The notes under the pieces were generated by a model. The model worked only from the letters and a program-made list of their open reading frames with translations, had not been told where the DNA came from and made no database searches. From the NCBI GenBank assembly GCA_017527065.1, contig JAFXQO010000010.1:1-64000 (forward strand): a stretch of 64,000 bases of DNA, given 5' to 3'. Below, piece after piece: positions 46,634 to 49,017 of this stretch. Numbering within the stretch: the first letter of the stretch is position 1; each line of letters opens with the position of its first letter. A program made the translations under genes and the position numbers. Source of the stretch: Clostridia bacterium. Its GTDB lineage: Bacteria; Bacillota; Clostridia; Christensenellales; Aristaeellaceae.

Positions 46634-46647
46634 CGAATACATGTTCG
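46634..46647. promoter_or_regulatory. Upstream LexA-like box
   Basis: CGAATACATGTTCG, one arm base away from the Gram-positive LexA (SOS) palindrome CGAAC-N4-GTTCG. It lies upstream of the -35 of the radical SAM gene and just after the ypeB stop. Confidence 0.6.
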
Positions 46648-46667
46648 TAATTTAACGTGGCGTTCGG

Positions 46668-46695
46668 TTGATTTCCGGCGGGAAAGTGGTATAAT
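46668..46695 (+). promoter_or_regulatory. Promoter of the radical SAM cassette
   Basis: TTGATT at 46668-46673, a 16-base spacer and a perfect TATAAT at 46690-46695. It is bracketed by the two LexA-like boxes at 46634 and 46704. Confidence 0.75.
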
Positions 46696-46703
46696 GAGCA
46701 TAA

Positions 46704-46717
46704 AGAACAAATGTTCT
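46704..46717. promoter_or_regulatory. LexA (SOS) box at the transcription start
   Basis: AGAACAAATGTTCT: perfect GAAC-N4-GTTC arms of the Bacillus/Clostridia SOS box, placed 8 bases after the -10 where binding would block transcription. Confidence 0.75.
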
Positions 46718-46743
46718 TTTTTACTTCAAAGAGGTGATTCGCC

Positions 46744-48036
46744 ATGACCATCATGGAAAAGCTGACCATCCTGAGCGACGCCGCCAAATACGACGTGGCC
46801 TGCACCTCCAGCGGCGTGGGCCGCGCGGCGAAGGCGGGCGCTGTCGGCAATTCGATGGCCTGCGGCATCTGCCACAGCTTTTCGGCGGACGGGCGCTGCA
46901 TATCGCTTCTCAAGGTGCTGCAGAGCAACGCCTGCGTTTACGACTGCTCCTACTGCGTCAATCGCCGCTCGAACGACACGGCCCGCGCCACGTTCACGCC
47001 GCGGGAGCTGGCGGAATTGACGATGGCGTTCTACCGGCGCAACTACATCGAAGGGCTGTTTCTGAGCTCAGGCGTGATCGGCTGCGCGGATAACACCATG
47101 GAACTGATGATACGCACGCTGTCGCTGCTGCGGGAGGAGTACCGCTTCGGCGGCTATATCCACGCCAAGGCCATTCCCGGCGCGGACGAACGGCTGGTCG
47201 CCCGGCTGGGTCGGCTGGCCGACCGCATGAGCGTCAATCTCGAACTGCCCTCGCGCCAGAGCCTGCAGCGCCTCGCGCCGGACAAGCGCGGCGAGGATGT
47301 GCTGCGGCCCATGGACCAGATCGCGCAGGGCATAAGGCAAACGCAGAACGAGCTCACGCTCTATCGTCATACGCCGCGCTTCGTGCCCGCCGGGCAGAGC
47401 ACGCAGATGATCGTGGGGGCGTCGCCGGAAACCGACCGGCAGATCCTCTCGCTGACCGCCGGGCTGTATAAAAAGTACCGGCTCAAGCGCGTGTTCTTCT
47501 CGGCCTACATGCCCGTGGTGGCGGACAGCCGCCTGCCCGCGCTGACCACCCGCCCGCCGCTTTTGCGCGAGCACCGGCTCTATCAGGCGGATTGGCTGCT
47601 CCGGTTTTACGGCTTCTCCGCCGACGAGATACTCGACGAGAAACAGCCGAATTTTCATCCTCTGCTGGATCCGAAATGCAACTGGGCGGTCAATCATCCG
47701 GAATTCTTCCCGGTGGAGGTCAACCGGGCGGACTACGAGGCGCTCCTGCGGGTGCCCGGGGTCGGCGTGACCAGCGCGCGGCGCATCCTGCAGGCGCGGC
47801 GCGGCGGGCCGCTCAGCGCCGAAGGGCTCAGGCGGCTGGGCGTCGTGATGAAGCGCGCGCAGTATTTCATTACGGTGGGCGGGCGCATGGGCGTGAACGC
47901 CTCCCTGGGCCGGGCGCAGCTCATCGGCGCGCTCTCATCCGGCGGCGGTATGGCCCTGCCTGAAACCGCGCGCCAGCTCTCTTTTTTCGACACGACGGAG
48001 GAGGATCTGTCAAAATGCCTGACAGGACAAATCTGA
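46744..48036 (+). CDS. Radical SAM DNA modification/repair protein (TIGR03916 type)
   Basis: A 430-residue radical SAM enzyme. The cluster motif is C64-x3-C68-x2-C71 (NACVYDCSYCVNRR); further Cys at 20, 40, 43 and 52 (MACGICH) could bind a second cluster. Residues about 333-356 are a helix-hairpin-helix DNA-binding element (LLRVPGVGVTSARRIL). The family is predicted to act in DNA repair because partners are often fused to uracil-DNA glycosylase; the reaction is unknown. LexA-like boxes flank its promoter. The next gene, its usual partner, overlaps it by 22 bases. Confidence 0.92.
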   Translation: MTIMEKLTILSDAAKYDVACTSSGVGRAAKAGAVGNSMACGICHSFSADGRCISLLKVLQSNACVYDCSYCVNRRSNDTARATFTPRELAELTMAFYRRNYIEGLFLSSGVIGCADNTMELMIRTLSLLREEYRFGGYIHAKAIPGADERLVARLGRLADRMSVNLELPSRQSLQRLAPDKRGEDVLRPMDQIAQGIRQTQNELTLYRHTPRFVPAGQSTQMIVGASPETDRQILSLTAGLYKKYRLKRVFFSAYMPVVADSRLPALTTRPPLLREHRLYQADWLLRFYGFSADEILDEKQPNFHPLLDPKCNWAVNHPEFFPVEVNRADYEALLRVPGVGVTSARRILQARRGGPLSAEGLRRLGVVMKRAQYFITVGGRMGVNASLGRAQLIGALSSGGGMALPETARQLSFFDTTEEDLSKCLTGQI

Positions 48037-48830
48037 TCTATCGCTACGACGGCAGCTTCGACGGCCTGCTCACCTGCGTGTTCGAGAGCTACGCCCGCCA
48101 CGAAACGCCCGACGCCATCCTGTCGCCCGACGAGGAGCAGACCATGCTCTTTGAGGCGCGCCGGATCGAGACGGATTACGTGAAGTCGGAGCGGGTGCTG
48201 CGGGGCGTGATCAACAGGATTTCGCCCGAAGCGGCGGATTTCATCCGCATGGCGCATCTGAGCTGCATCTTCGATCGCGACCGGCGCATCCTGGCGTTTC
48301 TGAAGCTGGGGTTCGAGGCGGGGCCGGGCGTCATGAACCGGTTGGCCGACGTCCGCGTGAACGCGCTGATGAGCGGCGTGCGCTACCTCGAGCGCGAAGC
48401 GCATCATTACATGGGCTTTGTGCGGTTTACGGAGATCGACGGCGTGCTGGCCTCGGTCATCCAGCCGAAAAACCGCGTGCTGCCGCTGATCGATCCGCAT
48501 TTTTCAGACCGATTCAACGCCGAGCGCTTTATCATCCACGACGCCACGCACCGCTGCGCGCTGATGCACATGCCAGGCTGCAGCCGCATCGTGGCGATGG
48601 ACGAGCTGCGCGTGACGGCCTCCAGCCCGCGGGAATTGCAGGTGCAGGCGCTGTGGAAGCGGTTTCACGAGACGATCGCCGTGGAAGGCCGGCTGAATCC
48701 GCAGCTTCAGCGCAACAATCTGCCGCTTCGGTTCCGGCCGCAAATGACGGAATTCCAACCGAAAGAGCCAGCAGGAAAGGAGATCGAGAGATATGAGGAA
48801 GGTGCCGGTCGGCGTCTTGGCGCAGTTTGA
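48015..48830 (+). CDS. TIGR03915/DUF4130 partner protein, probable DNA metabolism
   Basis: A 271-residue cytoplasmic protein, the standard partner of the radical SAM enzyme upstream. YRYDGSFDGLLTCVFESYARHETPD at the N-terminus, EADFIRMAHLS in the middle and ERFIIHDATHRCALMHMPG are typical of the DUF4130 domain. In about two-fifths of genomes this protein is fused to a uracil-DNA-glycosylase-like domain; here it stands alone, with no such extension. It starts within the end of the radical SAM gene. The C-terminus is overlapped by a small third gene. Confidence 0.88.
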   Translation: MPDRTNLIYRYDGSFDGLLTCVFESYARHETPDAILSPDEEQTMLFEARRIETDYVKSERVLRGVINRISPEAADFIRMAHLSCIFDRDRRILAFLKLGFEAGPGVMNRLADVRVNALMSGVRYLEREAHHYMGFVRFTEIDGVLASVIQPKNRVLPLIDPHFSDRFNAERFIIHDATHRCALMHMPGCSRIVAMDELRVTASSPRELQVQALWKRFHETIAVEGRLNPQLQRNNLPLRFRPQMTEFQPKEPAGKEIERYEEGAGRRLGAV

Positions 48831-49017
48831 CGCGCAGGGGCGGCTGCTGCCCGTATCCGTGACGTGGGAAAACGGGCGGATATACAACATCGAGCGCGTC
48901 CTCGGCATGCGCGTGTCCCGCATGAACAGCGCGAACCATCGCTACGACGTGGTCATTCACGCCCAGGAAACCTGCCTGTACAAGGCGGGCGACACATGGT
49001 ATATGGAGGCGGAATAG
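48793..49017 (+). CDS. Small third protein of the radical SAM cassette
   Basis: A 74-residue protein of unknown function: VPVGVLAQFDAQGRLLPVSV, TWENGRIYNIERVLGMR, then NHRYDVVIHAQETCLYKAGD and WYMEAE. The alternating pattern predicts a small beta-barrel with Trp at both ends. It overlaps the DUF4130 gene by 38 bases and has an AAAGGAG site inside it, so it is part of the same SOS-like operon. I do not recognise the family; a DNA-repair accessory role is inferred from context only. Confidence 0.75.
   Translation: MRKVPVGVLAQFDAQGRLLPVSVTWENGRIYNIERVLGMRVSRMNSANHRYDVVIHAQETCLYKAGDTWYMEAE

Follow-up and report, generated by a model that had tools for sequence, protein, structure and literature searches.

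A radical SAM/DUF4130 repair operon with SOS-type boxes and a small, ImuB-C-like third gene in a Clostridia bacterium

Is the DNA-repair pair formed by a radical SAM protein and its DUF4130 partner under SOS control in a Clostridia bacterium of the Aristaeellaceae, and what is the 74-residue protein encoded directly behind the pair? The three genes lie in a stretch of 64,000 nucleotides (the window; positions 1 to 64,000 of contig JAFXQO010000010.1, assembly GCA_017527065.1) from a genome, G000, of 3.07 Mb in 85 contigs which is 89% complete. The operon is a lineage-specific form of a known type of SOS repair operon. What is already known is an SOS repair operon around the known radical SAM/DUF4130 pair; as far as the searches show, the novel parts are a switch of partner by the small protein and a DHH-like fold proposed for DUF4130. 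The account as a whole, a damage-inducible repair operon combining a radical SAM enzyme, a DHH-like DUF4130 protein and an adaptor of the ImuB-C type, is considered probable. Re-reading of the window recovered the three open reading frames (ORFs), the two LexA-like boxes and the promoter of an initial annotation, all at the same coordinates:

46634-46647, no strand assigned: upstream LexA-like box CGAATACATGTTCG, with one mismatch, in the left half
46668-46695, plus strand: sigma-70-type promoter TTGATT-N16-TATAAT, from a scan for promoter-like sites
46704-46717, no strand assigned: main LexA-like box AGAACAAATGTTCT, at the expected transcription start
46744-48036, plus strand: radical SAM protein of family TIGR03916, ORF of 430 residues
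48015-48830, plus strand: DUF4130/TIGR03915 partner, ORF of 271 residues
48793-49017, plus strand: all-beta small protein, ORF of 74 residues

The ORFs of the radical SAM protein and DUF4130 overlap by 22 nt and those of DUF4130 and the small protein by 38 nt.

SOS control of the operon is well supported by sequence comparison rather than by the window alone, because boxes recur upstream of orthologous operons. Within the window alone a search with the loose LexA consensus (up to 2 mismatches) is powerless, with 45 sites against 44.8 expected. Among the 80 best-scoring loci of the radical SAM family in named genomes, 34 carry a perfect GAAC-N4-GTTC box no more than 200 bp 5' of the radical SAM gene, and 56 carry one there if a single mismatch is allowed. 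Dinucleotide shuffling, repeated for 300 rounds, gave a mean of 0.23 and a maximum of 2 for perfect boxes, and a mean of 4.7 and a maximum of 12 with up to one mismatch. Of the perfect sites across these loci, 41 lie in the final 200 bp before the gene, six in the preceding 2.8 kb and two in the 1.5 kb after its start. Many of the loci come from Oscillospiraceae and Lachnospiraceae and others from Paenibacillus, Desulfosporosinus, Endomicrobium and Brucepastera; because they are mutually related, they do not amount to 80 independent events. A radical SAM match was also found in 25 of 100 relative genomes, 24 of them above the family cut-off. A box is present at most 200 bp upstream at 17 of the 22 loci from relatives (the window's own excluded) that have upstream DNA, a count made by eye from the profile start without L039 (truncated), the paralogues below the cut-off (L041 and L042) and the weak fragments (L040 and L043-L045). 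The boxes are conserved in related genomes, and the proposal of SOS control made in the initial annotation has held up.

The TIGR03916 radical SAM family is presumably the same as COG4277. COG1573-COG4277 operons are described as LexA targets, by prediction in Bacteroidetes and from previous reports in Verrucomicrobia and Alphaproteobacteria, and the radical SAM relative is annotated there with the same name (PMC8565304). The second operon gene in Paracoccus (479 residues) is annotated as UdgX, whereas the operon of the window is without a glycosylase: Pfam and NCBIfam scans found no uracil-DNA glycosylase domain in its three ORFs. The description of the pair as uncharacterised needs qualification, in that LexA control of CAC3343-CAC3344 in Clostridium acetobutylicum was predicted in 2013; the passage concerned mentions no third gene and does not call the second gene DUF4130 (PMC3828012).

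Three promoter-like sites occur in 2.7 kb where 0.5 are expected, and TTGATT-N16-TATAAT, one of the three, is kept across an alignment of five genomes, being shifted in L017. The counterpart of the main box is perfect in L017, L020, L022 and L023, while that of the upstream box is perfect in L017 and has one mismatch in the other three; the two-box layout, with a spacing of 69-70 bp around the same promoter, is preserved in G001, G002, G004 and G048. Two overlapping elements lie at the -35:

46649-46666, plus strand: AATTTAACGTGGCGTTCG, with a GTTCG half-site, adjoining the -35
46658-46669, also L084:160-171 and L089:2090-2101: GGCGTTCGNTTG, a shorter element whose GTTCG half-site touches the -35

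The shorter element is found in the promoter of the radical SAM operon in six genomes and in two polymerase/ImuB-C-like promoters (L084 and L089), and it lies 46-47 bp upstream of the box in L001, L084 and L089. The scan for it matched 15 of 335 loci, with some places counted twice and one match, in L188, located elsewhere; one element scan used a pattern derived from the site at 46649-46666, the presence of which there is by construction. GGCGTTCGNTTG may be either a half-operator or an extended -35 element.

The genome encodes a full LexA (228.1 bits against a cut-off of 110.95), and exact GAAC-N4-GTTC occurs at 24 sites genome-wide compared with 16 for the reversed pattern. Some AT-centred sites precede ruvC, ftsK/spoIIIE and, as a pair, a Y-family polymerase gene (Pfam names). 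The lexA gene has its own site with 2 mismatches, and the LexA-like site of recA (L213, contig C10) is weak. GAACAAATGTTC is found five times in the genome, once before ruvC. At position 2503 of L048 (contig C36) it precedes a large-terminase ORF, which may be an SOS-controlled prophage gene; further copies at 2010 in L047 and 2461 in L049 lie by an ORF without a Pfam match and a calcineurin-like phosphoesterase gene. The perfect sites before the terminase ORF and beside the phosphoesterase gene, together with a second LexA-like protein (C43) that scores below the cut-off, would also be compatible with boxes that serve another repressor of the same motif class, phage-type or HdiR-like. This is very unlikely, since a full LexA is present, the boxes before ruvC, ftsK and the polymerase gene are of this kind, and the motif is that of the published Bacillus subtilis LexA operator, GAACN4GTTC (PMC4234289).

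The second part of the question concerns the small protein. Its gene, to judge from its pattern of conservation, is a genuine one: four copies of the protein share 34 invariant positions, and dN/dS (the ratio of non-synonymous to synonymous substitution rates) is 0.14-0.29 in the nine pairs, of ten, for which dS is finite. The gene is part of the radical SAM operon in the window and at four of 25 loci of relatives (G048, G004, G002 and G001), which makes five genomes only, from two genera, and it was found at none of the 80 radical SAM loci of named genomes. The proposal that it is a third component of the operon consequently stands for this genus and fails at large, where orthologous operons lack it. 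The small-protein profile has matches in 223 of 300 relative genomes at a loose E-value of 0.5, many of which must be due to chance. Phylum-wide there is a match in 27 of 398 genomes, and among 34 loci scanned the window's own is the only one with a radical SAM gene within its flanks.

Although the protein has no match in Pfam or NCBIfam and had been called unrecognised, it can be placed in a family of small beta proteins linked to SOS functions. Its predicted model has six strands, with a predicted local distance difference test score (pLDDT) of 90.2 and no close match in the PDB, and W69, R29, R40 and R50 are conserved at 90% or more in 24 family sequences. It is most likely a standalone ImuB-C, the traits of which it shares: about 80 residues, an all-beta fold, a conserved C-terminal Trp and basic residues. 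ImuB-C is likewise reported to have no close PDB match (PMC12926913). The DUF955 peptidase of the ImuB-C literature is taken here to be Pfam M78. Published contexts of standalone ImuB-C comprise a Y-family polymerase, Ku/ligase, a peptidase and radical SAM genes, and the published context network names SplB-like radical SAM genes and DUF4130 (PMC3765255). ImuB-C is also described beside YqjH polymerases, mostly in Clostridia (PMC6511836). According to the same two papers, the standalone ImuB-C found with a YqjH-type polymerase has the small all-beta protein, the SOS-type promoter and the C-terminal Trp in common with the window; the window's protein differs from it in its partners, a radical SAM protein and DUF4130, and in a shortened AGG loop.

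In comparisons of the family with 16 ImuB proteins, hhalign gave P values of 0.03-0.07 in local mode and 0.4 in global mode, which are not significant, and HMMER recovered none of the 16. ImuB-C membership therefore rests on context, size and fold class. The same profile tests would suit an unrelated small SOS beta protein that merely shares the gene neighbourhoods of ImuB-C, as would the scant matches of Pfam DUF6504 (two of 24 members, best E 0.031, and one further at 0.027), with no match in the genome or in 148 of its class. Such an unrelated protein is nevertheless improbable: the best local alignments to full-length ImuB fall in its C-terminal domain, the contexts observed (polymerase, Ku with ligase, peptidase and radical SAM) are those published for standalone ImuB-C, and the published proximity to YqjH polymerases in Clostridia fits as well.

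Where the family occurs without the radical SAM pair, it often accompanies polymerases. At 14 of the best 25 loci outside the operon an ORF assigned to the Y-family, an identity checked by Pfam for one of the 14, lies directly upstream on the same strand; the box before these ORFs is perfect in 11 cases and has one mismatch in two, and the remaining locus, L085, starts inside the ORF. In a genome of the window's own genus (L093, G003, contig C159) a longer version of the protein is encoded with an IrrE-like peptidase, a helix-turn-helix protein and a divergent Y-family polymerase gene. Among 26 viral contigs, seven copies have a perfect box at most about 62 bp upstream (L187, L188, L190, L194, L195, L196 and L198), and of eight viral contigs inspected three (L187, L190 and L194) have Ku beside the small gene. 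On an Oscillospiraceae plasmid the gene is annotated beside that of DNA polymerase IV, and genes for ligase and Ku lie close by. In the family tree, built from short sequences with a midpoint root, the five copies from the operon group together in a single clade, whose sister is the polymerase-linked copy L082, of a different genus within the same family; both nodes have support 100. This is most simply explained by one transfer from a polymerase operon.

An alternative is that the small gene is a hitchhiker in the operon, owing its SOS expression to its downstream position while the protein still serves a polymerase encoded elsewhere. The frequent company of Y-family polymerases and the boxes of the phage copies' own would favour this, as does the window's genome, which keeps two Y-family genes (C9 and C29) and in which the small-protein profile finds a single match (E up to 0.5). 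Set against it, the gene begins within DUF4130 in each of the five operons, an arrangement suggestive of coupled translation, and the loop that carries AGG in other family members is shortened in the operon clade, as might follow a change of partner. A hitchhiker is possible but less likely.

DUF4130 is recognised by TIGR03915 (223 bits against 112.25) and by Pfam (147.7 bits against 27, E 3.2e-43), and it follows the radical SAM gene in 77 of the 80 loci, a few of which have an intervening gap of as much as about 1.3 kb. Of the three exceptions, L182 stops with the radical SAM gene itself, and no DUF4130 is seen in L128 and L133. Its predicted model (pLDDT 90.6) resembles in residues 1-206 the fold of DHH/DHHA1 phosphoesterases such as RecJ, Cdc45 and PAP phosphatase, and DUF4130 is accordingly predicted to have a DHH/DHHA1-like fold without the DHH motif. 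Unlike in those proteins, no invariant Asp-His-His is found among 66 DUF4130 sequences, and the invariant residues sit in the second half. The DUF4130 profile did not match any of 20 NrnA-type proteins, and the likeness finds no confirmation in sequence profiles. No earlier report of a DHH-like fold for DUF4130 was found in the literature.

The radical SAM protein matches TIGR03916 (rSAM_link_UDG) with 643.7 bits against a cut-off of 343.5; Pfam Radical_SAM is above its cut-off and the helix-hairpin-helix (HHH) matches are below theirs. Its CxxxCxxC motif (C64, C68 and C71) is invariant in 99 of 99 sequences. C20, C43, H44 and C52 are invariant to the same extent, and it is possible that they form a second metal site. 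Sequence matches in the PDB (22 at E up to 1) include radical SAM maturases such as HydE and HydG at the cluster region and ComEA-related and RuvA chains at the helix-hairpin-helix region, with no SPL-titled chain among the 22. Spore photoproduct lyase SplB is likewise a radical SAM DNA-repair protein, and earlier authors term relatives SplB-like, whereas the protein described here has three extra invariant cysteines. In the paralogues L041 and L042, which score below the family cut-off, the match begins at profile position 51-53, and the N-terminal cysteine region therefore lies outside it.

It is proposed that LexA occupies the box over the transcription start and blocks the promoter, probably assisted by the second box 70 bp upstream. 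Damage-activated RecA would induce self-cleavage of LexA, and the three overlapping genes would then be expressed together. The radical SAM enzyme, with its DNA-binding helix-hairpin-helix, may act by radical chemistry on a base that is damaged or modified. As its standing partner, DUF4130 would have a RecJ/Cdc45-like DHH fold which, having lost the DHH motif, probably binds DNA or a nucleotide and does not cut it. The small protein, a putative standalone beta barrel of the ImuB-C type acquired once from a LexA-controlled Y-family polymerase operon, would dock the repair enzyme, in place of a polymerase, to damaged DNA or RecA, which hints at a portable adaptor of the SOS response. The most far-reaching version remains tentative: ImuB-C would have moved from a translesion polymerase to a radical SAM base-repair enzyme, DUF4130 would be a catalytically dead, RecJ/Cdc45-like DNA holder, C20/C43-H44/C52 would form the second metal site, and the whole would be a radical-based direct-repair complex recruited in the manner of a mutasome.

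The radical SAM/DUF4130 pair is widespread; the conserved SOS-type promoter, and the fold proposal that ties DUF4130 to RecJ and Cdc45, offer testable handles on it. A third is the natural experiment in which the small protein exchanged a mutagenic polymerase for a repair enzyme as its partner; it could allow the adaptor function of ImuB-C to be studied apart from the polymerase. Directly 5' of the operon lie genes for Spore_II_R, a cell wall hydrolase (SleB in NCBIfam) and YpeB (Pfam names), and the host is therefore probably an endospore former.
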